In this document: in pieces, positions 16,307-29,979 of the stretch
Position numbering within the stretch: position 1 is the stretch's first letter
How the letters are laid out: each line of letters opens with the position of its first letter
IMG/VR virus record: IMGVR_UViG_3300042558_001368
Location: 1 to 29,979 of that record
Source of the DNA: a virus
Length of the DNA: 29,979 nucleotides
Direction: 5' to 3' (one strand)
Position numbers and translations under genes: made by a program
The notes under the pieces: generated by a model
Databases searched by the model: none
Seen by the model: the letters and a program-made list of their open reading frames with translations, nothing else
Told to the model about the DNA's origin: nothing

Positions 16307-16312
16307 AAATAC

Positions 16313-18848: not shown

Positions 18849-19193
18849 TTAGAATGAATCTAGATCCATTATGTATTTGCTATCTCTTACTCTTGTTTCT
18901 TCAAGGGATTTAATAGTTAGGTTTCTATCCACCGCCCCGTATTTTGCCTCAATCATATCGTTGAGAGCATCAGCCAGAAGCAATCCTTCGGATGTGTATC
19001 CCTTGTCCCATTCTGACTTTAATCTAAGGGAATTGTATTGGATAATATATCTAACTAGTTCCATTAGCCTGTCTTGGGTGTATAAGGTATGTTCAGTTGT
19101 TAATACATTTGCCATTACGGCAGGGGAGAAGTTAGCATTGTTTAGATAGTCTGTTAGTTTTTCTGCTGCTTTGAATTCGTTCGCTTTAGCCAT
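18849..19193 (-). CDS. Hypothetical protein (114 aa)
   Basis: First gene of the leftward block counted from the junction. It begins MAKANEFKAAEKLTDYLNNA, is mostly helical with many charged residues (EETRVRDSKYIMDLDSF at the end) and has no Cys motif. A GAAAGGCGG ribosome binding site lies upstream and the 19215-19235 promoter drives it. No family is recognised. Confidence 0.65.
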   Translation of the reverse strand: MAKANEFKAAEKLTDYLNNANFSPAVMANVLTTEHTLYTQDRLMELVRYIIQYNSLRLKSEWDKGYTSEGLLLADALNDMIEAKYGAVDRNLTIKSLEETRVRDSKYIMDLDSF

Positions 19194-19214
19194 TGAGTTC
19201 CGCCTTTCGTTTTG

Positions 19215-19235
19215 ATTATACCATTGACCACTGAC
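19215..19235 (-). promoter_or_regulatory. TGTCAG-type promoter 1
   Basis: TATAAT (19215-19220) and the TGTCAGTGG box (19228-19235), seven bases apart, reading leftward to the 19193 gene. Confidence 0.75.
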
Positions 19236-19252
19236 ATTTGTAAATGAAGCGA

Positions 19253-19293
19253 GGTTCCTCCCCTTTCCCGTTTTCCCACAGAGAGGAGGAACC
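19253..19293 (-). terminator. GC-rich hairpin after the Lsr2-like gene
   Basis: GGTTCCTCC (19253-19261) pairs with GGAGGAACC (19285-19293), nine base pairs with a 23-base loop, downstream of the Lsr2-like gene on the - strand. No U-tract. A weak terminator candidate. Confidence 0.4.
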
Positions 19294-19307
19294 CCACACT
19301 TAGTTTA

Positions 19308-19460
19308 TTACTTGACGTTCTTCTTGTCTGTGAAGACTACGCCCTCTTGTGCTGCCTTGCTGATAACGCCTAGAGCTGCAGCTGAAAAGCGGCCACGCTT
19401 GCCCACAGAAATTCCCTGGGTCTTGAGGTACTCACGAGTTGTTGTTGGTGTTGATGTCAT
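19308..19460 (-). CDS. Lsr2-like DNA-binding mini-protein (50 aa)
   Basis: MTSTPTTTREYLKTQGISVG, then K-R-G-R (R22-G23-R24) and a helix FSAAALGVISKAA. The C-terminal DNA-binding domain of Lsr2 has the same helix-RGR-helix pattern and binds AT-rich minor groove. The length (50 versus about 112 in full Lsr2) means only this domain is present, without the oligomerisation domain, so it may antagonise host Lsr2. AGAAAGGA precedes the ATG by eight bases. The promoter upstream has a palindrome in its spacer. Confidence 0.6.
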   Translation of the reverse strand: MTSTPTTTREYLKTQGISVGKRGRFSAAALGVISKAAQEGVVFTDKKNVK

Positions 19461-19493
19461 TTGTTTGATCCTTTCTAGATCTTTGTTATATAT

Positions 19494-19522
19494 ATTATAT
19501 CCGAATTTCGGCGATTTGTAAA
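19494..19522 (-). promoter_or_regulatory. Classical promoter with operator-like spacer
   Basis: On the - strand TTTACA (19517-19522), 17 bp and TATAAT (19494-19499). The spacer contains CCGAATTTCGG (19501-19511), a perfect 11-bp palindrome except for its centre, placed to block RNA polymerase. The leftward TGTCAG box is missing here, so regulation differs. Confidence 0.7.
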
Positions 19523-19567
19523 TAGGTGCCGTAAAGCAAAATTTTTGCCCGTGCCCTTAGATTATGA

Positions 19568-19594
19568 CCGTTATGTCCGAATTGTCCATAACGG
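19568..19594 (-). terminator. Stem-loop terminator candidate
   Basis: CCGTTATG pairs with CATAACGG (eight base pairs, 11-base loop), just downstream of the 19607-19789 gene. No U-tract. Confidence 0.5.
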
Positions 19595-19606
19595 CCCAAC
19601 CTATCT

Positions 19607-19789
19607 TTATTCAGTTGTTAGTTCTTCTACTTGGTATGGCTCTATCTTATCTTTACGATTGGCACCCTTTTGCCATTCTTTCTTAGGTGCGGCTACTGCC
19701 TTGTACCATGCCTCATCGCTGTCCTTGGCTTCTACTACAATGTAAAATTCCTGAATGGTGTCGCCATATACTTTAAACTGTTTAGTCAT
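19607..19789 (-). CDS. Hypothetical protein (60 aa)
   Basis: MTKQFKVYGDTIQEFYIVVE, then AKDSDEAWYKAVAAPKKEW. A beta-beta-alpha pattern resembling small phage DUF families where a helix carries ADSxDEA. The ATG overlaps the next gene's stop by four bases. Function unknown. Confidence 0.6.
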   Translation of the reverse strand: MTKQFKVYGDTIQEFYIVVEAKDSDEAWYKAVAAPKKEWQKGANRKDKIEPYQVEELTTE

Positions 19790-19923
19790 AGTTCCACCTG
19801 TTCTATCTTGTCTTTAATTAGTTTAGCAATGATGTTGTGTGCCTCGATGTTTTCTGTTTCGGACCCACCCCACAAAAGCTTTTGGGCTTTACTAAGTTGA
19901 TCGTTTAAGTACTTATCACTCAT
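19786..19923 (-). CDS. Hypothetical helical protein (45 aa)
   Basis: Starts MSDKYLNDQLSKAQKLLWGG at 19923 where it overlaps the upstream stop by eight bases. A longer start at 19986 overlaps the upstream acidic tail far more. Ends AKLIKDKIEQVEL. No motif. Confidence 0.6.
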   Translation of the reverse strand: MSDKYLNDQLSKAQKLLWGGSETENIEAHNIIAKLIKDKIEQVEL

Positions 19924-20242
19924 CTTCATCTTCGTCGTCCTCCTCTTCTTCATCTTCCTCAAACATTGTGTCCACAATGTATTCACGATTCATCATCCAT
20001 TCAAGGACATCTTCGTTGTGCTGTTCGGCACCGTACTCCAGAGAGAACCCCATACCAGCCTCCACAGCCTCACAGAGGTGGCCCCACATGTCATCTAGGG
20101 TGCAGTTCTGCTTGTAGGTCTCATCCTCAAATATGTTGTTAATTGTTGACCAAGTCCACAACCAAACTAATGATAGACCTAGGTCAGTGCTGTCTAGAAT
20201 CTCTAAACACTTGTTTAGTTTATCTTTATCGTCAGGCTTCAT
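19916..20242 (-). CDS. Hypothetical protein with acidic tail (108 aa)
   Basis: Starts MKPDDKDKLNKCLEILDSTD; Trp-rich middle (LVWLWTWSTINN) and a poly-acidic end (EEDEEEEDDEDEDE). Two Cys (C12, C47). The acidic tail could mimic DNA. The start at 20242 is the ATG that overlaps the next gene; a TTG at 20248 is also possible. Confidence 0.6.
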   Translation of the reverse strand: MKPDDKDKLNKCLEILDSTDLGLSLVWLWTWSTINNIFEDETYKQNCTLDDMWGHLCEAVEAGMGFSLEYGAEQHNEDVLEWMMNREYIVDTMFEEDEEEEDDEDEDE

Positions 20243-20522
20243 TAGCAAACTCCAAATCTATTCTTGATTGAATTGCAAATGATAGTTCATATGTTAGTTG
20301 ATATAGTTCGACTAGAGTATCTAGTCGTCCTTCACATTCTGTTCGGACCATAGAATCCATTGCCTCTTCAGACAACTCCTCCTGTGCTAATGCGTCCTTT
20401 AAATCTTGCTCGGCAATTAGCATTAAGTTCTTTAGTTCTCCGTGCATTATATCTAATCCGCTAACACCCGCATTAACCAAACGCTGTAGGTGCGGAGGGA
20501 GCCCAATGTCTTCTTGATTCAT
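20232..20522 (-). CDS. Hypothetical protein (96 aa)
   Basis: MNQEDIGLPPHLQRLVNAGV and long charged helices with repeated Glu. Helical, no motif. TAATG-type overlap with the upstream gene (both at 20522). Confidence 0.6.
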   Translation of the reverse strand: MNQEDIGLPPHLQRLVNAGVSGLDIMHGELKNLMLIAEQDLKDALAQEELSEEAMDSMVRTECEGRLDTLVELYQLTYELSFAIQSRIDLEFANEA

Positions 20523-20725
20523 TATATTACCTCATAGTTCACTAGTGTTGATTCATTTAAGTTGTTTGCCCAATCAGGCTTTCCTTCTACCCAATCATAT
20601 TCAATATCGATATCTCCTCCGCCTTCGGCAGGAGCACCAATTGTGATTACCAATTCTGTCCCGTCCTCAAAAAATATTTGTTCAACGGCGGAACGATAAG
20701 TAACTTCTCTAGATGATATGTTCAT
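20522..20725 (-). CDS. Hypothetical protein (67 aa)
   Basis: MNISSREVTYRSAVEQIFFE, then an acidic beta-rich segment with GGGDIDIEYDW. CGAAAGGG-type site before the ATG and a TGTCAG promoter 25 bases upstream inside the next ORF, so it is independently controlled. Confidence 0.6.
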   Translation of the reverse strand: MNISSREVTYRSAVEQIFFEDGTELVITIGAPAEGGGDIDIEYDWVEGKPDWANNLNESTLVNYEVI

Positions 20726-20967
20726 TAATATACCCTTTCGTTATCAATCATTATATCAGTAGCCACTGACAAAATATGTTCCATAGTATCAATGGCACCC
20801 ATATAATAACTATCTGATTCGAAGTATTCATCTTCAGGAATAGGAATATTATTTCTAGCATCTTCTAAATCTTGTTCTAAACTAATCTTATGTATCTTTA
20901 GATACTCCATAAAATGTGATGACTTAGTCAAAATAACCCTCCGCCCAAAGCCCCTGGAGGAAGTCAT
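20725..20967 (-). CDS. Hypothetical protein (80 aa, start uncertain)
   Basis: MTSSRGFGRRVILTKSSHFM, then a helical acidic body (EYLKIHKISLEQDLEDARNN). Its start overlaps the preceding gene by 44 bases; an alternative ATG at 20910 avoids this. No ribosome binding site is visible for either. Function unknown. Confidence 0.5.
   Translation of the reverse strand: MTSSRGFGRRVILTKSSHFMEYLKIHKISLEQDLEDARNNIPIPEDEYFESDSYYMGAIDTMEHILSVATDIMIDNERVY
20750..20770 (-). promoter_or_regulatory. TGTCAG-type promoter 2 (intragenic)
   Basis: TATAAT (20750-20755), seven bases, TGTCAGTGG box (20763-20770), lying inside the 20725-20967 coding region and aimed at the 20725 start. Confidence 0.65.
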
Positions 20968-21097
20968 TTGTTTTTAACAAGCCTTCATTTAATATTGACT
21001 TGTCCATTAAATCGGACGGGGTTCTAAGATAAAATAACTTAGCATCATGTACTGAGTTAATCATCTCATCAAGATCATCTTTAGTATAACCTAGCAT
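20924..21097 (-). CDS. Hypothetical protein (57 aa)
   Basis: MLGYTKDDLDEMINSVHDAK, LRTPSDLMDKSILNEG and an end FLQGLWAEGYFD. It overlaps the upstream stop (ATGCTAG) and the downstream start. Helical. Not recognised. Confidence 0.55.
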   Translation of the reverse strand: MLGYTKDDLDEMINSVHDAKLFYLRTPSDLMDKSILNEGLLKTNDFLQGLWAEGYFD

Positions 21098-21237
21098 TCT
21101 ATTGCCTCCATATATTTAATCATAGTATTAAGTGTTATATGAATGTGACAATCACAATCATCTGATGTATCTCTATCATCAAAATGGATTAAGTTGTCAT
21201 CATAGATATAATCAATTAGTTCTTGGCTGGTAATCAT
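21091..21237 (-). CDS. Hypothetical protein (48 aa)
   Basis: MITSQELIDYIYDDNLIHFD, then DDCDCHIHITLN with two Cys and two His, possibly metal-binding. It overlaps the genes on both sides by four to seven bases. Confidence 0.55.
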   Translation of the reverse strand: MITSQELIDYIYDDNLIHFDDRDTSDDCDCHIHITLNTMIKYMEAIEC

Positions 21238-21446
21238 AGGAGGAATTCATCTCCTTCAATATAACCATAGTACTCATTGTATGATTGTTTTAAGTTATCA
21301 GGAGCAAATTGCATGAACATATATTCAGCATAATCGCTGCCCTCATCTAAATTTTTGCTGTTCCATTGTTCAAAGAGATGTTGCTCAATATCTACTTGAA
21401 TTGCTCCAAGGATATGTTCTCCTACTGTATCTGTAAATGCTTCCAT
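21234..21446 (-). CDS. Hypothetical protein (70 aa)
   Basis: MEAFTDTVGEHILGAIQVDI, an acidic helical protein ending GYIEGDEFLL. Overlaps the next start by four bases. It has its own TGTCAG promoter (21487-21507) inside the YubB-like gene, with AAAGGCGG near the ATG. Confidence 0.6.
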   Translation of the reverse strand: MEAFTDTVGEHILGAIQVDIEQHLFEQWNSKNLDEGSDYAEYMFMQFAPDNLKQSYNEYYGYIEGDEFLL

Positions 21447-22180
21447 TATGCTTCCGCCTTTCTATATTCGGGTACTTTAGTGTCTAAGTATATCTTATGG
21501 GTCTGACAAATTGCTACAGCCTCTAGGTCAGCATTGCCTAGCCAGTTGCAGTTGCCACAGATTTCACCGCAGTCATTGTCGCAGTATTCCATTTGGTCAG
21601 TTGCATCACAATCACGGCACATGTTATCGTATTCTGATTCTGATATAACTTCTCCACGGAGGAATTCCATTTCCCCACCCCAACCTGTTTCTTCTTCATA
21701 TGATAAAGTAAATAGTAGTGTTGGGTATTGTGCAGATAGTTTAGAGATAGCACCAAGAGGTCGTGACCATGCAGTGTTAAAGTTGTAATGAACTACATAG
21801 TTCTCACCGTTTTCTGCTTCTTCAATAGTTGTATCAGGATACTTATTACCCTCGGCTACAGCAACATCCCACTTGGTTCCCCACTCACGCACATTAAAGT
21901 TGTACCAGTCATTGGTCTCAAACTTCATTGCCTGAGAAAAGTCGGTGGAACGAGGAGGCTGTCCATGATATACCTCATCAGTAATACCAGCATCTCTATA
22001 GTTATAGATATTATGAAAAGCAAAGATAGGATTAACATACTTAGTCTGCTTGACATCATATGATAAATCACCTACTGCAGTAATAGAATAAACAAATGGC
22101 TTATTCATTTGTTTGATTAGAGATTTTACTTGCTCAGGATTACCTTCAATAGTTAATCCATTAAATACCCAATTTGGCAT
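21446..22180 (-). CDS. YubB/Api92-like ferredoxin-fold protein with Cys tail
   Basis: Starts MPNWVFNGLTIEGNPEQVKS, the N-terminal pattern of YubB/DUF1281-like plasmid and phage proteins (MPNWxxNxL). The middle (PTLLFTLSYEEETGWGGEM) matches the family's aromatic loop. The C-terminus, from about residue 188, has seven to eight Cys (CRDCDATD, CDNDCGEICGNC), a zinc cluster not usual in the family. The start at 22180 is supported by a CGAAAGGAT ribosome binding site; a longer open frame reaches 22333 but crosses the promoter. Confidence 0.7.
   Translation of the reverse strand: MPNWVFNGLTIEGNPEQVKSLIKQMNKPFVYSITAVGDLSYDVKQTKYVNPIFAFHNIYNYRDAGITDEVYHGQPPRSTDFSQAMKFETNDWYNFNVREWGTKWDVAVAEGNKYPDTTIEEAENGENYVVHYNFNTAWSRPLGAISKLSAQYPTLLFTLSYEEETGWGGEMEFLRGEVISESEYDNMCRDCDATDQMEYCDNDCGEICGNCNWLGNADLEAVAICQTHKIYLDTKVPEYRKAEA
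21487..21507 (-). promoter_or_regulatory. TGTCAG-type promoter 3 (intragenic)
   Basis: TATACT (21487-21492), seven bases, TGTCAGACC box (21500-21507), inside the YubB-like coding sequence and aimed at the 21446 start. Confidence 0.65.
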
Positions 22181-22207
22181 TTTATATCCTTTCGTTGATA
22201 TGTTCCA

Positions 22208-22228
22208 ATTATACAATGGACCACTGAC
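22208..22228 (-). promoter_or_regulatory. TGTCAG-type promoter 4
   Basis: TATAAT (22208-22213), seven bases, TGTCAGTGG box (22221-22228). Leader of about 27 nt to the 22180 start. Confidence 0.75.
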
Positions 22229-22275
22229 ATTTGGAATAGCAAATAGGTGTGTTTCACACCACATTTTCCAAGCTA

Positions 22276-22291
22276 TGTGGTCAAGATCACA
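22276..22291 (-). promoter_or_regulatory. CRP/GlxR-like palindrome (one mismatch)
   Basis: TGTGG-N6-TCACA, one mismatch to TGTGA-N6-TCACA, 70.5 bp from promoter 4's -10. It continues into ACAAATTCCTGGG like the other copies. Confidence 0.45.
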
Positions 22292-22363
22292 CAAATTCCT
22301 GGGAAAATTAACTTGACGTCGTAAAACAAACATGCTACCCTCAAGTCTTTGCGGGCAATAGAA

Positions 22364-22386
22364 AACCCCCAGCTATGCTGGGGGTT
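22364..22386 (-). terminator. Intrinsic terminator
   Basis: Perfect 10-bp stem AACCCCCAGC/GCTGGGGGTT with a three-base loop. On the - strand TTTTC follows, as for an intrinsic terminator of the 22509-22874 operon. Confidence 0.8.
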
Positions 22387-22508
22387 ATGAATATGGCTGC
22401 TGATTTCCAACGAAAGAAATAAACCGCTTTACTTAGCGCCTGGCCCTAAAGACTAATAGACGCACCATTTCATTTCCTATTAAAACCAGGACCAAAGTCC
22501 TAGTCTAA

Positions 22509-22874
22509 TTATACCATAACTAGTCGACTGTATTTATCTACGAATGCTGCAAGGGACGAGGTAAACACTACCGTGCTCAGGTCCTCTTCATACAGTGTAA
22601 AAGTTTGATTGGACCAATCAATAACAGGCACCTTATGCTCATTATCTCCTAATTGATTAATGTAGATACCCCAGCCTGTTTTTTCAGTCCAGTCTTCTCC
22701 AATTAGATTAGATATAGCAATGCGTGTTGCATATGATTCATCCTGCCAGCGAGGCTCTGCAGCCTGCACAGCATTGGCCAACTTGGCTAGCATATTATGC
22801 CCAGCCCAGTGTCCATATAGAAATAGTACATTCTCCTTGGAATCTCTGAATCCAAAGTTTGCTCTGTCGCCCAT
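22509..22874 (-). CDS. Conserved actinophage protein of unknown function (121 aa)
   Basis: MGDRANFGFRDSKENVLFLY plus GHWAGHNMLAKLANAVQAAE and SYATRIAISNLI. I recognise this family from many actinobacteriophages, without an assigned function. It is the last gene before the terminator. Confidence 0.75.
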   Translation of the reverse strand: MGDRANFGFRDSKENVLFLYGHWAGHNMLAKLANAVQAAEPRWQDESYATRIAISNLIGEDWTEKTGWGIYINQLGDNEHKVPVIDWSNQTFTLYEEDLSTVVFTSSLAAFVDKYSRLVMV

Positions 22875-22875
22875 T

Positions 22876-23085
22876 TTATTCCGCCGTTTCTAGTTGAGGG
22901 ATTGCTTCTTCCGTTTTGTTTAATTCTATCACTTCGTATGCGACCTTGTCAAGGCCACGCTTGCTTGCGTTGTAGTGGTGACCGCAAAAGAAAAGCTCAC
23001 CATCTACTAGTTTAACCATATACATTGCTTGGGCTGTGCCACATTGGTCACATGCTATCCATCTTGTTAGATCTTCCATTGTCAT
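22876..23085 (-). CDS. Small CxxC/GHH zinc-ribbon protein (69 aa)
   Basis: CDQCGTAQ then GELFFCGHHYNASKRG, the pattern of the actinobacterial zinc-ribbon family (CDRCGA...GELxFCGHHY, DUF7455-like). The start at 23085 overlaps the upstream stop; GGTGGAG lies four bases before it. Function unknown. Confidence 0.7.
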   Translation of the reverse strand: MTMEDLTRWIACDQCGTAQAMYMVKLVDGELFFCGHHYNASKRGLDKVAYEVIELNKTEEAIPQLETAE

Positions 23086-23228
23086 AGTGCTCCACCTTCA
23101 ATCATCTCAGAAAGACGATCAAGGATCCAGGAATCAATGTCGTTGATATCAATCTCTGATAACTTTTCCATGATTTCATCACGGGCAAACTTATACCCAT
23201 CGTCCCAACCATCTTTATAGTCTGACAT
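23082..23228 (-). CDS. Hypothetical acidic helical protein (48 aa)
   Basis: MSDYKDGWDDGYKFARDEIM and SWILDRLSEMIEGGAL. TAAGGAGAAATT precedes the ATG as a strong ribosome binding site. It overlaps the next start (ATGA). No family. Confidence 0.6.
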   Translation of the reverse strand: MSDYKDGWDDGYKFARDEIMEKLSEIDINDIDSWILDRLSEMIEGGAL

Positions 23229-23237
23229 AATTTCTCC

Positions 23238-23441
23238 TTAATAACCTGTGGTTTCGTAGTCTGATATGTAAGATTCAGTTAAGTTATACTTATCACGAAT
23301 TCTACTTACTTTCTCAATACTACCAGTTCCAATGTTGAATGTCAACGGTGACATTGCTTGCGGGTCCAGCCCAATAATTTGTGCATCCCAATAGGCCATC
23401 TCCATGGATAGCCTATCAGGAGCAGTCAACTCAAAATACAT
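23238..23441 (-). CDS. Hypothetical protein (67 aa)
   Basis: MYFELTAPDRLSMEMAYWDA, a beta/alpha mix with QIIGLDPQAMSPLTFN. It shares its ATG with the TAG/TAA end of the upstream gene (both at 23441). No family is recognised. Confidence 0.6.
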   Translation of the reverse strand: MYFELTAPDRLSMEMAYWDAQIIGLDPQAMSPLTFNIGTGSIEKVSRIRDKYNLTESYISDYETTGY

Positions 23442-23908
23442 TAGCAGTTCTCCCTAATGTTGCAGATTTCTTGGTCAACAACTTCAATGTTGCCATTGTG
23501 TGAATCAGCATAAAGAGCATCTTCAATTTCTGAATCTAAGTCAAAATGAGTATCCTCAAGTAGGTTGACTGAAATAGTTCCGCTAACTTCAATAGATGCA
23601 GACCATTCAATCTCTCTAATTAATTCAATCTCAAGCGCTTCTGCAATTGCTTGCAAAGTTTCTTGGTCTTCTGAATCAGCATATGCCTCTGAAATAATAT
23701 CTTTAACTAAGCCAATCTTATTCTGTAAAGATGAGACTGCCTTAGAATTTGTGCGACCATTATGCAGTTCGTATTCAATGTTGCGAACTTTATCTGTAGC
23801 ATATTCAGCATCCGAATAACCACGGATTACTTTGTATGTAACTAATTGGTCAGGGTTGTACTTCTCTGCATCTGATAGAGGCAGGTTTTCTACTGTCATT
23901 CCGTCCAT
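23441..23908 (-). CDS. Hypothetical acidic protein (155 aa, own promoter)
   Basis: Starts MDGMTVENLPLSDAEKYNPD with a GAAAGAAGGAAGC ribosome binding site and its own TGTCAG promoter (23943-23963). Rich in Asp/Glu with helices (SEDQETLQAIAEALEIEL). The same frame continues upstream without a stop to 24115, so it is nested within a longer protein. Function unknown. Confidence 0.65.
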   Translation of the reverse strand: MDGMTVENLPLSDAEKYNPDQLVTYKVIRGYSDAEYATDKVRNIEYELHNGRTNSKAVSSLQNKIGLVKDIISEAYADSEDQETLQAIAEALEIELIREIEWSASIEVSGTISVNLLEDTHFDLDSEIEDALYADSHNGNIEVVDQEICNIRENC

Positions 23909-24115
23909 ATTGCTTCCTTCTTTCGTTTGGTTTAAGGATGTAATTGTAGCATGCTCCACTGACACTAATGTGGTCTTACGGCCACACGGGCATGTGAGTT
24001 CTGTCACACCTGATGGAAAGCCAAATCCATCAGATGATGTTAATTGGATTAAACAATCACACTCATCTGGGTCACAGACAAATGTGTACACGCTTGATAC
24101 TAGTTCGTTGGTCAT
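23441..24115 (-). CDS. Zinc-ribbon protein fused in frame to the 23908 gene (224 aa)
   Basis: From ATG at 24115 (MTNELVSSVYTFVCDPDECD) a Cys4 ribbon (CDPDECDC then CPCG near residues 42-45) is followed by VSVEHATITSLNQTKEGSN and then the 155-residue protein. Seven bases separate the promoter -10 from the ATG, so it is leaderless. The zinc part resembles a stand-alone actinophage protein, so loss of its stop codon probably fused two genes. Confidence 0.6.
   Translation of the reverse strand: MTNELVSSVYTFVCDPDECDCLIQLTSSDGFGFPSGVTELTCPCGRKTTLVSVEHATITSLNQTKEGSNMDGMTVENLPLSDAEKYNPDQLVTYKVIRGYSDAEYATDKVRNIEYELHNGRTNSKAVSSLQNKIGLVKDIISEAYADSEDQETLQAIAEALEIELIREIEWSASIEVSGTISVNLLEDTHFDLDSEIEDALYADSHNGNIEVVDQEICNIRENC
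23943..23963 (-). promoter_or_regulatory. TGTCAG-type promoter 5 (internal to the long ORF)
   Basis: TACAAT (23943-23948), seven bases, TGTCAGTGG box (23956-23963), inside the zinc-ribbon part and aimed at the 23908 start. Confidence 0.65.
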
Positions 24116-24122
24116 GTACAGA

Positions 24123-24143
24123 ATTATACAGGACCCCACTGAC
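24123..24143 (-). promoter_or_regulatory. TGTCAG-type promoter 6 (leaderless)
   Basis: TATAAT (24123-24128), seven bases, TGTCAGTGG box (24136-24143). The ATG at 24115 is seven bases after the -10. A near-match TGTGA-GTCGTA-ACACA (24172-24187) lies 51.5 bp upstream of the -10. Confidence 0.72.
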
Positions 24144-24216
24144 ATTTACAATAGATTCCAGGGAATTTAAATGTGAGTCGTAACACACTTTTTGCCCCCT
24201 TAGCTTTGAGGGCGCT

Positions 24217-24293
24217 TGGCGATCCATAACGGACTTGAACCGTCGGCCTCTACCGTGACAGGGTAGCGCTCTAACCAACTGAGCTAATGGACC
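24217..24293 (-). tRNA. trnD: tRNA-Asp (GTC) with encoded CCA
   Basis: On the - strand the acceptor stem GGTCCAT pairs with ATGGATC and is followed by G-CCA. D-arm TAGCTCAGTTGGTTAGAG is standard. The anticodon stem CTACC/GGTAG holds the loop CTGTCAC, anticodon GTC. The T-arm is GACGG-TTCAAGT-CCGTT. Length 77 with CCA. It should help read the many Asp codons of the small acidic genes. The encoded CCA could be host-independent processing. Confidence 0.95.
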
Positions 24294-24295
24294 AA

Positions 24296-24327
24296 GAAAA
24301 AATGTGAGCAGTTTTAAATCTTGCTCA
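24296..24327 (-). terminator. Intrinsic terminator after the DUF932 gene
   Basis: TGAGCA pairs with TGCTCA on the - strand and is followed by CATTTTTTC, a U-rich tail. It separates the DUF932 gene from the tRNA, so the tRNA depends on read-through or its own promoter. Confidence 0.7.
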
Positions 24328-24340
24328 GGATTATTTTTAT

Positions 24341-25348
24341 TTAGAAAGCAGAAATCAATTTCTTGATTTTGTTTTTCTCAGCGGTTAGCACTGGGTCAAA
24401 TCCTGATGCGCCAGCCATAAGCGTTTCAGAATTTCCACGACCTGAGCGATAGTAATCAAGGCGTTCGGTGAGAGCATTAAACGCACCCCATTTAGTTCCC
24501 TTGATGTTAGCATTAGTTGGTGAGTTATGGTAAAGGTCATCAAGTAGCACGACCTTATTCTCCCATTTAGTTAGCGCAACTTTAGCAGCATCATCAGCAG
24601 GCTTTGGATAAATTGTGTGAATTAACTTTGAGAATTCAGCATCAGTAATTGACTGAGAATAAAGTGCTTGCGCTTCCTTCTCGAATTCATCAAAGTAACC
24701 AAGAGCAAGCCCAAGAGTTTCACGAGCAACTTGAATGCGACCTTCAACAGATTGCGTATGACGAATCTTGAAAGATTGCTTAGCGTTACGCATGGCAAGA
24801 TTCAATGTGTTTTGGCATACAACACGAACAGGAGTAACAGCAGCCTGAACAGCAACTGACCCGTCATGTGATGTCCATACAATTAAATAGAGTTTAGTTT
24901 CATCGTTGGCACCTTGTGGGTCAAGAACCATTGTGCGAGGAATATCAACAGTGCCGAATACAACTTTGCCCTTTTTCAATGAGCCAGCAGATTCCCAACG
25001 GCAGTCAGCGTTCGCATCATGAATAGCATCAGCGAATGCGAATAATTCTTCATTCTGTACAGGCTTGTAACGCTTGCCAACAGTGGCAAGAACATCAGTT
25101 CCCTTATTGAATGGATTGTCACGAATGACAAGAGATGCGGTAGAGACATCATTCCAAGATTCTGGAATGTGCTCAGTGATTGGAGATAGACGAACATTCC
25201 AATTTGCCAACTTTGCTTCTTCAAGCATTAGGGCGGTAGTAACTTCTTCATCTTTTGTGAAGATGCGATTTGCTAGGTTGTGCCAAGCAGGTGCGCCACG
25301 GAGAGCGAAAGCAACTTCGCCGTTTTCCATTTCTAGATTGTGAGCCAT
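24341..25348 (-). CDS. DUF932 / TIGR03299-type phage-plasmid protein
   Basis: 335 residues from ATG 25348, starting MAHNLEMENGEVAFALRGAP with AWHNLANRI, the typical start of the TIGR03299/DUF932 family found on phages and plasmids. Later LGLALGYFDEFEKEAQALYS and the repeated YHNSPTNANIKGTKWGAFNA agree. Function is not established; it may be linked to plasmid or phage replication genes. CGAAAGG lies upstream. Alternative start at 25402 would cross the promoter. Confidence 0.85.
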   Translation of the reverse strand: MAHNLEMENGEVAFALRGAPAWHNLANRIFTKDEEVTTALMLEEAKLANWNVRLSPITEHIPESWNDVSTASLVIRDNPFNKGTDVLATVGKRYKPVQNEELFAFADAIHDANADCRWESAGSLKKGKVVFGTVDIPRTMVLDPQGANDETKLYLIVWTSHDGSVAVQAAVTPVRVVCQNTLNLAMRNAKQSFKIRHTQSVEGRIQVARETLGLALGYFDEFEKEAQALYSQSITDAEFSKLIHTIYPKPADDAAKVALTKWENKVVLLDDLYHNSPTNANIKGTKWGAFNALTERLDYYRSGRGNSETLMAGASGFDPVLTAEKNKIKKLISAF

Positions 25349-25379
25349 ATATTTTTTACCTTTCGTTTGATTAGTCATA

Positions 25380-25400
25380 AGTATAACAGGTGCCACTGAC
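25380..25400 (-). promoter_or_regulatory. TGTCAG-type promoter 7
   Basis: TATACT (25380-25385), seven bases, TGTCAGTGG box (25393-25400), 31-nt leader to 25348. Confidence 0.75.
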
Positions 25401-25439
25401 ATTGTCTAGGATTAGATACAATATGTCCGAATTGATCCA

Positions 25440-25455
25440 TGTGATTAATCTCACA
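25440..25455 (-). promoter_or_regulatory. CRP/GlxR-type palindrome (perfect TGTGA-N6-TCACA)
   Basis: TGTGATTAATCTCACA, centre 62.5 bp from promoter 7's -10. It continues into AAAATTCCAGGG. CRP or GlxR family sites in actinobacteria have this 5-6-5 form. Confidence 0.65.
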
Positions 25456-25466
25456 AAATTCCAGGG

Positions 25467-25498
25467 ATATCCACAGGCAGTCGTAACCCTGTGGATAA
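25467..25498 (-). repeat. DnaA-box pair (one degenerate, inverted)
   Basis: TGTGGATAA (25490-25498) is the complement of the DnaA box TTATCCACA. ATATCCACA (25467-25475) is an inverted near-match. CGTAA words flank it. Confidence 0.6.
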
Positions 25499-25517
25499 CC
25501 CCTTACCTTTACGGGCC

Positions 25518-25536
25518 AGCTGCAGGATATGCAGCT
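25518..25536 (-). terminator. Stem-loop after the 25549 gene
   Basis: AGCTGCA pairs with TGCAGCT around a five-base loop, 13 bases past the stop of the 25549-25803 gene. No U-tract. Confidence 0.4.
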
Positions 25537-25548
25537 AGTGTTAGATCT

Positions 25549-25803
25549 TTACAGACCTAACTCATCCCTGGTTAATTGATTCTTTCGATTGAAGTTAATA
25601 ACTTCGGCGGGAAGATAAAGAGCAGTTGTCTTAGTCTTCTTCAATGTATCATACACATAAGCACGAACATCACCAAAAAAGTTACGGCGATTAGAGAATG
25701 CTAATTCAGTTAAGTATTCCTTATCAACGCCTTGCTCTGAATAAATTGTTACATCATTTAACTTGTTCTCATCATAGATTTCTACTCTGAAACGATTTTT
25801 CAT
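25549..25803 (-). CDS. Hypothetical protein (84 aa)
   Basis: MKNRFRVEIYDENKLNDVTI then a Lys-rich beta-alpha protein ending QLTRDELGL. An AAAGGC site precedes the ATG. Probably in the same transcript as the 26297 gene. Family unknown. Confidence 0.6.
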   Translation of the reverse strand: MKNRFRVEIYDENKLNDVTIYSEQGVDKEYLTELAFSNRRNFFGDVRAYVYDTLKKTKTTALYLPAEVINFNRKNQLTRDELGL

Positions 25804-25874
25804 TTTGTTGCCTTTGTTAGTAGTTGTCCCAAAAGGGAGAGCAGTTTGGCGACATACTCAGGTCGTTGGATTAT

Positions 25875-26297
25875 TTACAGATAACGAGCAACCGCATTGT
25901 AAGTGCTGGTATTAACAACTTCCTCATCTGTCATTTTAAGAATACGAATTGCGTTTTCCATTTCCTCTTTCATCTCATTGTATGAGTGGCGGTGGATTAC
26001 TTCGTAGTCCTTCTCAGGTTCAGCAGGGAAGTTTCCTTCCTTTGTGATGATGTCAAAATCAACATTGAGAGTGTTGTTCCAGTTGCGATAGTTTGTGCGT
26101 AGGTTTTCAGCCTTTGAGAAGTTAGCAATAGCCCACTTTCCAATTTCCTTTTTCCACGCTTCTACCTGCTTGTTATACTTTGCTTCGTTTGCTTCTTGTG
26201 ATGCGAAGTCTTTATTTAGTTGTGCCAACTTTGTTTCCAAAGCCTTGATTACTCGCTGAGTTGGGATTTTCACCGAGATTGCTTTTCCTCTAGCCAT
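25875..26297 (-). CDS. Hypothetical helical protein (140 aa)
   Basis: MARGKAISVKIPTQRVIKAL, then Lys/Glu-rich helices (LAQLNKDFASQEANEAKYNK) and a C-terminal helix ending STYNAVARYL. Possible coiled coil. Driven by promoter 8; AAAGAAGGA lies before the ATG. Not recognised. Confidence 0.62.
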   Translation of the reverse strand: MARGKAISVKIPTQRVIKALETKLAQLNKDFASQEANEAKYNKQVEAWKKEIGKWAIANFSKAENLRTNYRNWNNTLNVDFDIITKEGNFPAEPEKDYEVIHRHSYNEMKEEMENAIRILKMTDEEVVNTSTYNAVARYL

Positions 26298-26336
26298 TTG
26301 TTTCCTTCTTTCGTTGTGGGTTGGGTTGATGAAGTA

Positions 26337-26357
26337 ATTATAGCAGGGAGGTCTGAC
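26337..26357 (-). promoter_or_regulatory. TGTCAG-type promoter 8
   Basis: TATAAT (26337-26342), seven bases, TGTCAGACC box (26350-26357). Confidence 0.72.
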
Positions 26358-26383
26358 ATTTCTGCGACCCCCCTGCCTTTAGA

Positions 26384-26566
26384 TTATACGCCTAGTAGTG
26401 TTTGAGCGGATACGGAAGTCCAACGAGTTTCCTTGTTTGGCATTTCCAATAGCACACGCACCGAGCCAGATGTTTGTGGGTGGATTTCTTTAATCACACC
26501 TGTTTTCTTTGACTTAAGGGTAGTGAATAAATCGCCTACCTGATACAACTTGTCGTTGATTGTCAT
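26384..26566 (-). CDS. Small beta-barrel-like protein (60 aa)
   Basis: MTINDKLYQVGDLFTTLKSK, then a strand pattern (TGVIKEIHPQTSGSVRVLLE) resembling SH3-like or KOW-type small domains. Single-gene unit with its own promoter (26597). Function unknown. Confidence 0.6.
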   Translation of the reverse strand: MTINDKLYQVGDLFTTLKSKKTGVIKEIHPQTSGSVRVLLEMPNKETRWTSVSAQTLLGV

Positions 26567-26596
26567 TTATTGCCTCTTTTCTTTGTTAGGTTGGTA

Positions 26597-26617
26597 ATTA
26601 TAGCATTGGGGTCTGAC
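26597..26617 (-). promoter_or_regulatory. TGTCAG-type promoter 9
   Basis: TATAAT (26597-26602), seven bases, TGTCAGACC box (26610-26617), 30-nt leader to 26566. Confidence 0.72.
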
Positions 26618-26663
26618 ATTAGTCTAGCCCTATCTCATTATTTGAGAAAGTTATTGTGTGACC

Positions 26664-26927
26664 TTAGTCACTTTCAGGTAGCCAAGCGTCTAAGTGGTGC
26701 TGTTCGATAATAGCCCACGCTGGCGCATGAGAGTCACCCTTATAAGATACGCCTTCAGGCATTTCGATCAACTTATTATAATCCTCATCATAGTAAGCAT
26801 CAATAGCCTCGATACAAGGCTGTACCATAGAAAGTGGGACGGGCGGGTAATGATTACCCTGTAAGTGATAACCTAGTGCTACCTCTAAATCTAATTCAGT
26901 TAAATCTAATGCTGTATTGTATCCCAT
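26664..26927 (-). CDS. Hypothetical protein (87 aa)
   Basis: MGYNTALDLTELDLEVALGY, then an acidic helical protein ending DAWLPESD. It shares its ATG with the stop of 26927-27130, so it is coupled. Unknown family. Confidence 0.6.
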   Translation of the reverse strand: MGYNTALDLTELDLEVALGYHLQGNHYPPVPLSMVQPCIEAIDAYYDEDYNKLIEMPEGVSYKGDSHAPAWAIIEQHHLDAWLPESD

Positions 26928-27130
26928 TATTCTGCCACCTTAAGAATTGCGTATGAGCCATTAGCATTTATCTCATCAAGAATTGGTTGTAGTCGGCTAC
27001 CGACTAAATCTTTTAGCATTGACTCTAGCATAAAGATACGAGTATCCTCATCAAGCATTTCTATTTGCTTAGTTACTGGATGGCCGTCCTTAAACTCTGT
27101 TACGAACTTCAGGTTGTGTTCTATTCTCAT
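26927..27130 (-). CDS. Hypothetical protein (67 aa)
   Basis: MRIEHNLKFVTEFKDGHPVT then a helical LKDLVGSRLQPILDEINANG. GAAAGGCAAC lies before the ATG. Driven by promoter 10. No motif. Confidence 0.6.
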   Translation of the reverse strand: MRIEHNLKFVTEFKDGHPVTKQIEMLDEDTRIFMLESMLKDLVGSRLQPILDEINANGSYAILKVAE

Positions 27131-27159
27131 TTGTTGCCTTTCGTTGTTGGTATAAGAGT

Positions 27160-27180
27160 ATTATAGCCTATGCCACTGAC
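27160..27180 (-). promoter_or_regulatory. TGTCAG-type promoter 10
   Basis: TATAAT (27160-27165), seven bases, TGTCAGTGG box (27173-27180). Confidence 0.75.
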
Positions 27181-27218
27181 AAATTGCTCAACACGCCCAA
27201 GCTTTATCTAATTTATTT

Positions 27219-27234
27219 TGTGATTAATCTCACA
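27219..27234 (-). promoter_or_regulatory. CRP/GlxR-type palindrome (perfect)
   Basis: TGTGATTAATCTCACA, identical to the copy at 25440, centre 61.5 bp from promoter 10's -10. Followed by AAATTCCAGGGG. Confidence 0.65.
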
Positions 27235-27247
27235 AATTCCAGGGGGT

Positions 27248-27277
27248 TGTGGATAACGCCCGTAACCCTGTGGATAA
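27248..27277 (-). repeat. DnaA-box pair, 21-bp spacing
   Basis: TGTGGATAA at 27248-27256 and 27269-27277, two helical turns apart with CGTAACCC between. CCCGTAA (27259-27265) and TTACGGG form an inverted pair around it. Confidence 0.65.
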
Positions 27278-27303
27278 CCCCGCAGCTTTACGGGCGGGCA
27301 GCG

Positions 27304-27435
27304 TCATTGATCAAATTTATTTTTATGTTTTATTTTTCTAAAATATTTTTTCTTATTGCGTACAGGTTGCGCCGCATTACTGCGACGCAATTCCTGTATG
27401 CGTTTAACTTTATCTCGAAGTGAATTTTGTGACAT
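27304..27435 (-). CDS. Small basic protein (43 aa)
   Basis: MSQNSLRDKVKRIQELRRSN and a Lys-rich end (KKKYFRKIKHKNK), strongly basic, possibly nucleic-acid binding. It overlaps the neighbour by 26 bases. Family unknown. Confidence 0.55.
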   Translation of the reverse strand: MSQNSLRDKVKRIQELRRSNAAQPVRNKKKYFRKIKHKNKFDQ

Positions 27436-27601
27436 GGTATCCACACGCTTTATGAAATCGGTTTACATCAAATCGCTCATTATCTTTTGCGAACATAACT
27501 GCGAAATCATTTACAATTTTAGAAAATAAAGCAGGGTGCGCCTTATCACTAGCAAAGTTTAAAATTTCTGCTACTGCGACATAATCTTTTCTTGTCATCA
27601 T
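27410..27601 (-). CDS. Hypothetical protein (63 aa)
   Basis: MMTRKDYVAVAEILNFASDK, then HPALFSKIVNDFAVMFAKDN and a His-rich end. The pattern (KxDYxAVAxIL) recalls small DUF-type phage proteins found in actinophages. Overlap of four bases with the next gene. Confidence 0.6.
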   Translation of the reverse strand: MMTRKDYVAVAEILNFASDKAHPALFSKIVNDFAVMFAKDNERFDVNRFHKACGYHVTKFTSR

Positions 27602-27804
27602 TTTGTTACGACCTTTCGACCTTCACGATAAAATGTTTTTGTGTACATCTTGCCAGTTGGCGTCATTAAATTTACAGTTGAGTATTCGTTAGCAAATCCC
27701 CAATCGGTAAATGAAAGAAATGCGGTGAACGCTTCTAAAGCGTCATCATAGTTTTTATTCCAATGGATAGGCTTGCTATCGTAGGAAATTGTTATTTGGT
27801 ACAT
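27598..27804 (-). CDS. Hypothetical protein (68 aa)
   Basis: MYQITISYDSKPIHWNKNYD, a small alpha/beta protein ending FYREGRKVVTK. TAATG overlap with the upstream gene. Unknown. Confidence 0.6.
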   Translation of the reverse strand: MYQITISYDSKPIHWNKNYDDALEAFTAFLSFTDWGFANEYSTVNLMTPTGKMYTKTFYREGRKVVTK

Positions 27805-27944
27805 TAGTCATTTTCCCCGTTCTTAAATAAAGAGCCATCTTGACAATCGCAAGGCTCGCAATCAAAATCATTATCATCACCAAAAAAGATTACGCCATGA
27901 CCTAAGCAATCTTGGCAATCTATTGTTAATACTGAGTTAATCAT
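27804..27944 (-). CDS. Small DnaJ-type zinc-finger-like protein (46 aa)
   Basis: MINSVLTIDCQDCLGHGVIF with CQDC, CLGHG and CEPCDCQDG. The pattern (CxxCxGxG...CxxC) resembles one zinc module of DnaJ. Acidic end. Function unknown. Confidence 0.6.
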   Translation of the reverse strand: MINSVLTIDCQDCLGHGVIFFGDDNDFDCEPCDCQDGSLFKNGEND

Positions 27945-28108
27945 TAGTGTTGTTCCTCGCAATCTTTGTCATAGTCAAATCCGCAAAAGTAGCAACCCAT
28001 AAATTCTAGGTGTTCGATACAGTAATACTTAAATTGACTTTCATCACAACAAAAATGTTGCTCGTCTGCGATTTCATAGAAATCGGTTTTGTCGATTATG
28101 TTTAACAT
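27944..28108 (-). CDS. Small Cys-rich protein (54 aa)
   Basis: MLNIIDKTDFYEIADEQHFC with C20, C21, C30, C39, C42 and C50 (CYFCGFDYDKDC), zinc-binding likely. First gene after promoter 11; GAAAGGAAAAC precedes the ATG. Confidence 0.6.
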   Translation of the reverse strand: MLNIIDKTDFYEIADEQHFCCDESQFKYYCIEHLEFMGCYFCGFDYDKDCEEQH

Positions 28109-28136
28109 AGTTTTCCTTTCGTTTGTTTATTCTGTA

Positions 28137-28157
28137 ATTATAGCGGATAGCACTGAC
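28137..28157 (-). promoter_or_regulatory. TGTCAG-type promoter 11
   Basis: TATAAT (28137-28142), seven bases, TGTCAGTGC box (28150-28157), with no CRP-like site or DnaA boxes between it and the gene upstream. Confidence 0.72.
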
Positions 28158-28160
28158 AAA

Positions 28161-28370
28161 TTAGTCAGATACCCTAACCGCAATGGTTGCCCAAAAGTTT
28201 TTGATCCCACGGGTTGGGCGAACCTCGATAGCGTAAGCCTCTAGGTTTTCTCCGTACCAAATTGCGTCACGCTTTGTTGCGTATACGATAGTTCCCTCGT
28301 CATGGCGAGAGTGTGAGCGATAGTGTTTTCCCTCTAAGAGGCTTTCGATAGTGTATGCTTTTGCTGACAT
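28161..28370 (-). CDS. Hypothetical protein (69 aa)
   Basis: MSAKAYTIESLLEGKHYRSH then KRDAIWYGENLEAYAIEVRP; a beta/alpha protein ending IAVRVSD. Single-gene unit between promoters 11 and 12. Unknown. Confidence 0.6.
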   Translation of the reverse strand: MSAKAYTIESLLEGKHYRSHSRHDEGTIVYATKRDAIWYGENLEAYAIEVRPTRGIKNFWATIAVRVSD

Positions 28371-28402
28371 GAGTTGTCACCTTTCGTTTGTTGATACTGG
28401 CA

Positions 28403-28423
28403 ATTATAGCCTATGCCACTGAC
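28403..28423 (-). promoter_or_regulatory. TGTCAG-type promoter 12
   Basis: TATAAT (28403-28408), seven bases, TGTCAGTGG box (28416-28423). Confidence 0.75.
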
Positions 28424-28472
28424 ATTTTCACATTACTGGCGAGTAATTCCACATTTTGAGACGCTCAAGTCG

Positions 28473-28488
28473 TGTGATAAAAATCACA
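28473..28488 (-). promoter_or_regulatory. CRP/GlxR-type palindrome (perfect)
   Basis: TGTGATAAAAATCACA, centre 72.5 bp from promoter 12's -10, one helical turn more than at 25440 and 27219. Followed by AAATCTCGGGCGTGTCGCA and then AATTCCAGGGG. Confidence 0.65.
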
Positions 28489-28519
28489 AAATCTCGGGCG
28501 TGTCGCAAATTCCAGGGGT

Positions 28520-28549
28520 TGTGGATAACCCCCGTAACCCTGTGGATAA
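28520..28549 (-). repeat. DnaA-box pair, 21-bp spacing
   Basis: TGTGGATAA at 28520-28528 and 28541-28549, with CCCGTAACCC between. Downstream CCCGCTCTTTTGCGGG can form a hairpin. Confidence 0.65.
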
Positions 28550-28600
28550 CCCCGCTCTTTTGCGGGCGCATCAACTTTTGTCAAGTCGACACGCCGCTGT

Positions 28601-28696
28601 TTATTCGAAATCTTTAAAAATTTCTTCAAGCTTTAGAATTTGCTCATCTGTTAAATGATCAATTTCAATTGCTTTTTCAAATCCAAAAAAATCCAT
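28601..28696 (-). CDS. Small acidic protein (31 aa)
   Basis: MDFFGFEKAIEIDHLTDEQI and an end KLEEIFKDFE. Its ATG coincides with the stop of the next gene (TAATG). Short, but the spacing supports translation. Unknown. Confidence 0.5.
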   Translation of the reverse strand: MDFFGFEKAIEIDHLTDEQILKLEEIFKDFE

Positions 28697-28890
28697 TATT
28701 CGTTTTCCATTTCTGCTAAATAATCTTCATGTTCAATTAGTCCGATTGAAAAAGCGATTGGGTCGCAACATTCCAAAATTTCGGCGGGAGTAAAAGTAGA
28801 GTAACCAATTTTTACAGTAGGGTAAACATCATTTAGTAAATCAATAAAGCTTTCTTTAATTTCTAAATCTTTTTCGAAATCTGATTTCAT
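28696..28890 (-). CDS. Hypothetical protein (64 aa)
   Basis: MKSDFEKDLEIKESFIDLLN, then PTVKIGYSTFTPAEILECCD, and the end IEHEDYLAEMENE. The mix of KxxY and (T/S)PAEILxxCD recalls small phage proteins of unknown function. Overlaps both neighbours. Confidence 0.6.
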   Translation of the reverse strand: MKSDFEKDLEIKESFIDLLNDVYPTVKIGYSTFTPAEILECCDPIAFSIGLIEHEDYLAEMENE

Positions 28891-29027
28891 TCGCTTAACT
28901 CCAATTCGGTATAATCAACAACAATAAAATCAAGTCGCTCTAATGGAACAACCTTTAACCATGATAAGGCAGACTCAAAATCATCTGCCTCAACAGTAAC
29001 GGATAAATCAAAATTAAATACAGCCAT
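28887..29027 (-). CDS. Hypothetical protein (46 aa)
   Basis: MAVFNFDLSVTVEADDFESA, LSWLKVVPLERLDFIVVDYT, a beta-alpha-beta pattern. Overlaps the next start by four bases. Unknown. Confidence 0.6.
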   Translation of the reverse strand: MAVFNFDLSVTVEADDFESALSWLKVVPLERLDFIVVDYTELELSE

Positions 29028-29189
29028 TTAGTTAGTTTCCTTATCTTTTAGTATGTTTAGAATAATCTCTAATTGCTTAGTGCTTAGTAACGCTTGAGCG
29101 CAACCCCACTTAAAGGCTAAATCCATTTCGCCATAGTGCTTTTTAGCAAGAGTTGTTATTTCTTGCGTTACCTCAAAATTAGTTTTCAT
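29028..29189 (-). CDS. Hypothetical protein (53 aa)
   Basis: MKTNFEVTQEITTLAKKHYG, then a helical body ending LKDKETN. It overlaps the gene after it by four bases. No family. Confidence 0.6.
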   Translation of the reverse strand: MKTNFEVTQEITTLAKKHYGEMDLAFKWGCAQALLSTKQLEIILNILKDKETN

Positions 29190-29371
29190 TTAGTTAAACT
29201 CCAATCGGAATAAAATGGTAAGCGGTCATAGTCATCATAGAAATAGACTCTATCTATGTTCTGCTCGCATGTTTCGCAGAAAGTGTATTCGACATCTACA
29301 CCCATGCCATAGGTAGTAGATACGCTCTCCATGTGTGGAGTGTGTGTATGTGTATTTGTTAGTGTAGTCAT
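29186..29371 (-). CDS. Small Cys/His protein (61 aa)
   Basis: Starts MTTLTNTHTHTPHMESVSTT at 29371 behind AAAGGTGG; a longer start at 29380 (GTG) is less likely. CETCEQNID gives one CxxC, and His-rich HTHTPH could bind metal. First gene after promoter 13. Confidence 0.58.
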   Translation of the reverse strand: MTTLTNTHTHTPHMESVSTTYGMGVDVEYTFCETCEQNIDRVYFYDDYDRLPFYSDWSLTK

Positions 29372-29402
29372 AGTGACCACCTTTCTTTTTCGTTATGGTA
29401 GT

Positions 29403-29423
29403 ATTTTACCACGGGGGTCTGAC
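29403..29423 (-). promoter_or_regulatory. TGTCAG-type promoter 13
   Basis: TAAAAT (29403-29408), seven bases, TGTCAGACC box (29416-29423). Confidence 0.68.
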
Positions 29424-29473
29424 ATTTATCTACCTACTAGCCAGTAATTCCAAATAATGAGACGCTCAGCCTA

Positions 29474-29489
29474 TGTGATAGTAATCACA
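29474..29489 (-). promoter_or_regulatory. CRP/GlxR-type palindrome (perfect)
   Basis: TGTGATAGTAATCACA, centre 73.5 bp from promoter 13's -10. The surrounding 90 bp (GAGACGCTCA, AAATCTCGGGCGTGTCGC) match the 28.4-kb cassette closely. Confidence 0.65.
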
Positions 29490-29520
29490 AAATCTCGGGC
29501 GTGTCGCAAAACCTGGGGGT

Positions 29521-29550
29521 TGTGGATAACCCCCGTAACCCTGTGGATAA
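29521..29550 (-). repeat. DnaA-box pair, 21-bp spacing
   Basis: TGTGGATAA at 29521-29529 and 29542-29550, with CCCCGTAACC between, in the same arrangement as 27248 and 28520. Confidence 0.65.
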
Positions 29551-29552
29551 CT

Positions 29553-29590: not shown

Positions 29591-29605
29591 CGACACGCCG
29601 TTAGG

Positions 29606-29978: not shown

Positions 29979-29979
29979 G

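Follow-up and report, generated by a model that had tools for sequence, protein, structure and literature searches.

The window analysed here, meaning the whole stretch of DNA, covers an entire virus record from IMG/VR (IMGVR_UViG_3300042558_001368, positions 1 to 29,979) that is 29,979 bases long and has a GC content of 0.376. Its leftward gene block carries thirteen copies of a promoter-like element, TGTCAG-N10-TATAAT or a close variant, in which a hexamer lies ten bases above a -10 sequence. Comparison with actinobacterial promoters that respond to DNA damage indicates that these elements are probably promoters read by sigma-A RNA polymerase together with the PafBC regulator of the host. 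The promoter class itself is an established one; what appears to be new is a phage regulon built on it, as no phage regulon of PafBC-type promoters was found in the literature searched, a search that most subscription papers lay beyond.

A preliminary description of this sequence had reported thirteen leftward copies with a spacer that is always 10 bases, and both statements were confirmed. At all 13 positions the minus strand reads TGTCAG, ten bases and then TATAAT (nine copies), TATACT (two), TACAAT (one) or TAAAAT (one); that is, every core has a TGTCR hexamer at N10 and a -10 of the TAnnnT type. The exact sequence TGTCAG-N10-TATAAT was matched nine times in the window and not once in any of 100 shuffles. 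TGTCAG occurs 19 times on the minus strand, and the six occurrences besides the thirteen have no TAnnnT at N10. On the plus strand there are seven, with a single TAnnnT fit at 1443 (TAAATT) that is the start-codon context of the whiB open reading frame (ORF; ATG at 1442) and no promoter copy. Alignment of the cores gave W-rich bases, TGTCAG, then TGG/TGC or ACC, a G at -2 (11 of 13) and the -10. The alternation between TGG/TGC and ACC at bases 7-9 runs through the cores from 19215 to 29424. The putative PafBC-type promoter cores are as follows.

19215 to 19236, minus strand: core TGTCAG-N10-TATAAT; ATG 22 nucleotides (nt) past the -10; TTTACA at 18 base pairs (bp)
20750 to 20771, minus strand: exact core, within the 3′ end of the upstream ORF; ATG at 20725
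21487 to 21508, minus strand: core with TATACT, ACC variant, within the 3′ end of the upstream ORF
22208 to 22229, minus strand: exact core; ATG at 22180, 244 amino acids
23943 to 23964, minus strand: core with TACAAT; ATG at 23908, 155 amino acids
24123 to 24144, minus strand: exact core; no downstream start codon found; TTGTAA at 17 bp
25380 to 25401, minus strand: core with TATACT, ahead of the DUF932 gene; TAGACA at 17 bp, kept in relatives
26337 to 26358, minus strand: exact core, ACC variant; ATG at 26297, 140 amino acids
26597 to 26618, minus strand: exact core, ACC variant; TAGACT at 18 bp
27160 to 27181, minus strand: exact core; motif match and downstream start
28137 to 28158, minus strand: exact core, TGC variant; motif match and downstream start
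28403 to 28424, minus strand: exact core; GTGAAA at 17 bp
29403 to 29424, minus strand: core with TAAAAT, ACC variant; TAGATA at 18 bp

Judged by its sequence and spacing, the phage element is the -26 element of the RecA-independent DNA-damage promoter (RecA-NDp), which PafBC reads, and not a new promoter class. The consensus tTGTCRgtg-8nt-TAnnnT is given in PMC5656591, and passages of PMC8223512 extend the motif beyond mycobacteria. As described in PMC11804915, PafBC is a heterodimer of WYL proteins for which the -26 motif is read in place of the sigma-A -35, a mode termed "sigma adaptation": PafBC takes a position between sigma-A domain 4 and the DNA of the promoter, the helix-turn-helix of PafB engages the -26 motif, and single-stranded DNA (ssDNA) bound by the WYL domains activates the complex. 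The fifth base of the phage hexamer is A or G, as in the published consensus. When sites were scored by that consensus alone, nine in the window reached 11-12 of 12 and none did so in one shuffle; three phage records gave 11-12 sites each, compared with 0-1 after shuffling. That a host factor other than PafBC recognises the element, either ClgR or another WYL regulator, is highly improbable. An earlier report, cited in PMC5656591, had ClgR recognising the P1 or RecA-independent motif; against this, work cited in PMC8223512 assigns the motif to PafBC, and a cryo-EM structure of PafBC on such a promoter is presented in PMC11804915.

The identification arose from a scan of 84,980 species genomes with a 16-base version of the pattern, TGTCAGTGG-N5-G-N-TATAAT. 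It returned 52 stretches spread over many phyla, no more than the roughly 120 that we would expect from our own arithmetic with uniform base composition. Four of these came from high-GC actinobacteria (two from Mycobacterium, one each from Mycolicibacter and Nocardioides), and straight after the -10 they carried cgaacgtatgttcga in two cases and a degenerate form of it in the other two. This palindrome recalls the actinobacterial SOS box, which led us to the RecA-independent DNA-damage promoter. Our first reading, a phage-specific activator with no counterpart elsewhere, was dropped once SOS-box-like palindromes or degenerate forms of them were seen to follow these four stretches. Another rejected candidate was an extracytoplasmic function (ECF) sigma factor using TGTC as its -35: the bases just past the -10, the expected place of such a factor's own -10, are weakly conserved (at most 0.48 bits for the first four), and those -10 bases that the search did not impose are better conserved (0.67-1.29 bits).

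Conservation was examined in the best 80 of 270 viral-contig relatives retrieved with the DUF932 gene of the block (24341-25402). The expectation that relatives would carry the motif was borne out: exact copies were present on the same strand in all 80 loci, 436 of them at N10 and three at the remaining spacings from 0 to 30. The claim that rightward genes lack the arrangement also held, with no exact copy at N10 on the opposite strand of these relatives. In its TAnnnT form the element occurred 6-17 times per locus and once, in a single locus, on the opposite strand. When the hexamer 16 bases upstream of each gene-strand TATAAT was tallied without filtering, TGTCAG accounted for 436 of 1314, the next commonest for 33 and TGTCGG for 13. 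TGTCAG had been called invariant, which is true of all 13 cores in the window and fails in relatives, as TGTCGG was found in 37 of 638 distinct contexts by a search admitting only A or G at the fifth base. The three bases after the hexamer in these contexts were TGG (256), ACC (157), TGC (74), TCC (50) or CCC (27). One cluster of 13 contexts (TGTCAGCAAATGTCTATACTAT) is a start-codon context rather than a promoter, and is counted within the totals of 638 and of 654 used below. At bases 7-9 relatives show TCC, CCC and AGG in addition to the forms seen in the window, and host recA promoters show TGG, TGC and CCC as well.

Longer and more distant records gave a similar picture. In each of twelve records of 40-117 kb the exact motif was confined to a single strand and occurred 3-9 times. 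Three records of 115-117 kb, classed as linear, held 16, 16 and 18 TAnnnT-type matches, all but one on one strand in a leftward block of about 11 kb; one match in record G3 of this set is a coding context like that of the start-codon cluster. A count over 199 loci (792 at N10 versus 21 at 15 other spacings) was set aside as main evidence because the loci overlap, being from the same contigs, and because one set had been fetched by the motif itself. Five motif-fetched contigs (L039, L048, L062, L068 and L081) carry 8-16 copies on one strand and at most three detectable homologues of G005 proteins, which implies either that the element persists after protein similarity has been lost or that separate lineages share it. 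L068 holds a DUF932 homologue at 50%; L048, L039, L062 and L081 are possibly another phage lineage with the same regulon. Together these results support the earlier proposal of a co-regulated leftward class whose specificity comes from an element other than the -35.

If the elements are PafBC promoters, the winged-helix domain of host PafB would read TGTCAG(TG) as the -26 motif, ten bases above the sigma-A -10. PafC would dock on sigma-A domain 4, so that the housekeeping RNA polymerase would start without requiring a -35. Because ssDNA switches PafBC on, the leftward block should respond to ssDNA and would be turned on once this is present during infection; candidate sources are resected ends of the genome, intermediates of replication and damaged host DNA. 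Timing by ssDNA is thus predicted from PafBC biochemistry, and early expression of the block would rest on the position of the homologous DUF932 gene in Streptomyces phages. We infer binding and activation by the PafBC of the true host, the ssDNA trigger, the timing and the bacterial group to which that host belongs.

The preliminary description had left open whether the activator comes from the phage or the host. The match to the known PafBC -26 motif makes a host factor likely, and a phage factor is disfavoured by the gene content of ten phage records, some of them fragments. No WYL domain (PF13280, E <= 1) was found in any of the ten, with the control positive in 9 of 14 genomes, nor was sigma-70 region 2 (PF04542), with its control positive in 10 of 14. 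A phage-encoded activator that binds TGTCAG and recruits host RNA polymerase, whether MotA-like, a WhiB protein or some small, unrecognised DNA-binding protein encoded in the block, is accordingly named here as an unlikely source of the specificity. WhiB-family proteins can act through sigma-A domain 4 and one is present in 9 of the 10 records; in addition, most of the block proteins scanned had no family match or were of unknown function and could hide a regulator. Weighing the other way, the identical element stands ahead of repair genes in cellular genomes, and whiB is not part of the block; the one nearby match, at 1443, is its own start-codon context. According to part of PMC6802176, WhiB is restricted to actinobacteria. 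Since most named phages with a DUF932 match also infect actinobacteria, we refer to the virus as an actinophage. No CGAAC-N3-5-GTTCG box was found in the window or in the three relatives of 115-117 kb, which gives no sign of this kind of LexA control.

Host PafBC promoters predict both the regulator and the element in candidate host genomes. With PafC query sequences taken from the Pup-ligase loci of three genomes behind named contigs, a match at E <= 1e-10 was found in 287 of 296 genomes of the class of the Nocardioides genome, a count to which paralogues may contribute. Among the small genomes, which are all 30 of 1.6 Mb or less within those 296, 26 had a PafC match. We used the 27 recA loci over the RecA cut-off (L330-L356); L357-L359 were excluded as weak matches that are not RecA. 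YGTCR was present at the N10 spacing upstream of recA in 23 of the 27 genomes, with 30 hits compared with 3 at eight other spacings, counts that are not independent because the small genomes are related. Several of these recA promoters read TGTCAGTGG or TGTCAGCCC, followed by N5, GC and TACCTT, and are close to the phage forms. By our own sums, TGTCRGTG-N8-TAnnnT occurred 71 times in the 26 PafC-positive genomes versus 24 times for the reversed pattern, and 3 versus 4 times in the four PafC-negative genomes.

One small genome, G440 (1.24 Mb, GC content 0.415), was inspected individually. Its GC content fits the 42% stated for Candidatus Nanopelagicales in part of PMC6802176, a resemblance and not an identification; a regular-expression search of this genome for a rhodopsin-like gene found none. 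Its adjoining PafB and PafC match the PDB chains of PafBC (7p5x, 9fnd and 6sj9) at 2.5e-36 and 1.4e-26, both contain the Pfam domains WYL and WCX, and PafC contains HTH_PafC. PafB retains RMFERDK-ELR-LGI, which we interpret as the helix that reads the DNA. Ten sites were listed, nine with TGTCRG and the CGTCAGTG of recA; two CGTCRG sites stand outside this list. Four of the ten lie ahead of recA, dinB, a DEDD exonuclease, and DUF6504 followed by a DnaE-type polymerase, and the last of these has an SOS-like palindrome. The 8-base form was enriched at N10 in this genome (5 versus a mean of 1.0).

Several observations weigh against control by PafBC, the first of which concern the -35 region. The preliminary description had found no conserved -35, and this stood insofar as the alignment of the 13 cores contains no -35-like hexamer common to all and no conserved -35 column, nor was a hexamer conserved over all sites seen in the promoter contexts of relatives. 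It did not stand for every promoter: six of the 13 cores have a hexamer matching TTGACA at four or more of six positions with a spacing of 17-18 bp, and such a hexamer is conserved within a small number of promoter families. Of the 654 contexts from relatives, 219 reached at least 4/6 of TTGACA versus 34-89 in offset windows, and 98 reached 5/6 versus 1-4. These values would favour ordinary sigma-A promoters that combine a weak -35 with a strong -10 and in which TGTCAG is the operator of a phage or host repressor. We nevertheless consider that arrangement very unlikely, since the excess is concentrated in few promoter families and many have no such hexamer, and since an element acting through contact with RNA polymerase would be expected to keep a fixed distance to the -10, whereas repressor sites can shift. 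Foremost among these few is the DUF932 promoter family, where 36 of 37 contexts keep TAGACA at 17-18 bp, unlike many other copies. Promoters with a -35-like hexamer may be a mixed sigma-A/PafBC type with basal activity, the DUF932 promoter being a possible case. A general sigma-70 scan of 16000-29979 showed no excess (49 versus 45.5, standard deviation 6.8).

The remaining difficulties for PafBC control concern the fit to the consensus and the host genomes. In relatives the TG after the hexamer is barely a majority (335 of 638 contexts), and the base before TGTC is A at 0.61 and T at 0.35, where the consensus has T. One of the 23 recA hits was in G379, a genome with no PafC match. Over the phylum, the strict TATAAT form was found in 7 of 296 genomes, including the source genome, versus 1 for the control. 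Twenty-nine small genomes from across the whole phylum had no TGTCRG before recA (the C form was not searched), which shows that the element is not a phylum-wide feature, and TGTCR-N11-TAnnnT preceded recA in just three of them. Within G440, six of the ten listed sites have no obvious repair gene after them, N10 shows no enrichment for the bare hexamer (9, with 1-13 at other spacings), and the full consensus shows no excess (12 sites at 11-12 of 12 versus 15 in one shuffle). Comparison of 98 phage loci with 94% of G440 gave no nucleotide match, and for that reason the host group is something that we infer.

PafBC-dependent promoters (RecA-NDp, P1) resemble those of the phage in having TGTCRG(TG) at -26, N10 and a TAnnnT -10, and perhaps in not requiring a -35; small actinobacterial genomes carry this element ahead of recA. 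The phage set differs in being phage-borne and clustered, with 13 copies, and up to 17 in relatives, within about 10-11.5 kb. It also differs in its -10, which is TATAAT in 9 of 13, in having no CGAAC-N3-5-GTTCG palindrome, in admitting A or T and not just T before TGTC, and in the TGS/ACC alternation. A second parallel is with the T4 middle promoters (MotA/AsiA), which retain a good -10 but have an activator element near -30 instead of a -35. The phage promoters would likewise combine an activator element with a good -10; the T4 box is different, and the T4 activator is made by the phage, whereas here it is likely the host's.

Distant relatives among the named phages infect Streptomyces. Karimac (Stanwilliamsviridae) and Riptide share a homologous DUF932 gene (about 50% identity), which sits near the genome end among small leftward genes; many genes of that block have a promoter-like intergenic sequence together with a ribosome site resembling CGAAAGG. 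Their promoters differ, reading TTG-N17/18-TAGACT by eye, and TGTCRG-N10-TAnnnT was absent from 20 kb of Karimac and 15 kb of Riptide. The 26.5 kb examined of LilMcDreamy contained no match to the element, and the 44 kb examined of Trina contained two at N10, no more than at other spacings. These Streptomyces relatives seem still to use ordinary sigma-A promoters. Their DUF932 gene occurs at two places per record, one less than 3 kb from the left end, and the second place presumably reflects a terminal repeat. PMC10202952 reports cultivation of Candidatus Nanopelagicales and isolation of phages; the isolated phages of Candidatus Planktophila form a separate group of 39 kb with a sigma-70 of their own.

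We incline, with caution, to the view that an actinophage lineage of at least 270 viral contigs has rewired a gene block from ordinary sigma-A promoters to the ssDNA-sensing PafBC of its host, such that the block would be expressed only upon infection, replication or host damage and host pafBC would be a dependency of the phage. If this is true, a phage gene-expression clock would be run by a host DNA-damage sensor, a clear case of a dozen or more phage promoters wired to a host DNA-damage activator, with control by activation rather than by LexA de-repression. It raises the question of whether PafBC, so far a repair regulator, decides phage gene expression and whether its loss protects the cell. 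The 638 distinct contexts would also provide several hundred natural -26 variants for defining PafBC specificity.

The position of the cores relative to genes was also revised. Three copies had been said to lie inside coding sequences; six of the 13 are inside the longest mechanical ORFs. A start codon preceded by a Shine-Dalgarno (SD) sequence lies 22-41 nt past the -10 for 12 of the 13 cores, and several gene starts were therefore moved below their promoter. With SD-based starts, four cores (25380, 23943, 22208 and 24123) are no longer inside their gene; two others, 21487 and 20750, remain in the 3′ end of the upstream ORF. Core 24123, which has no start codon of its own, may form a tandem promoter with 23943, which lies 180 bp downstream. 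By eye, a ribosome site of the ACGAAAGG-like type follows most of the 13 promoters and is likewise present in leaders of distant Streptomyces phages (L226, L227). The annotated genes are listed below.

24341 to 25348, minus strand: DUF932/TIGR03299 phage-plasmid-like protein (phrog_1221), start placed below promoter 25380; longer ORF 24341-25402
21446 to 22180, minus strand: block gene with a DUF1281_C ferredoxin-like (Api92-like) domain; Pfam match on the longer ORF 21446-22333, start SD-based
22509 to 22874, minus strand: block gene of unknown function, phrog_31860 (phrog match)
1442 to 1753, plus strand: WhiB-family protein of the phage, outside the block; PF02467 match at 1490-1663

No related phage gene was found in a species genome. 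G005 encodes a DNA polymerase III alpha-like protein and a RecA homologue in the rightward region (L208:178-3286), far from the block that carries the element. A perfect palindrome, TGTCAGTACCTGACA, is present at 16279-16293 on the plus strand of the window, inside a rightward promoter-like sequence, TTGTCA-N17-TATACT (16278-16306), that matches at 10 of 12 positions; the palindrome is a possible operator. The motif TGTCAG-N3-CTGACA also occurs in 15 of 98 phage loci. The rightward genes of the window end with a glycosyltransferase of the GlcNAc family (PF11397) at 16895-17947 on the plus strand.

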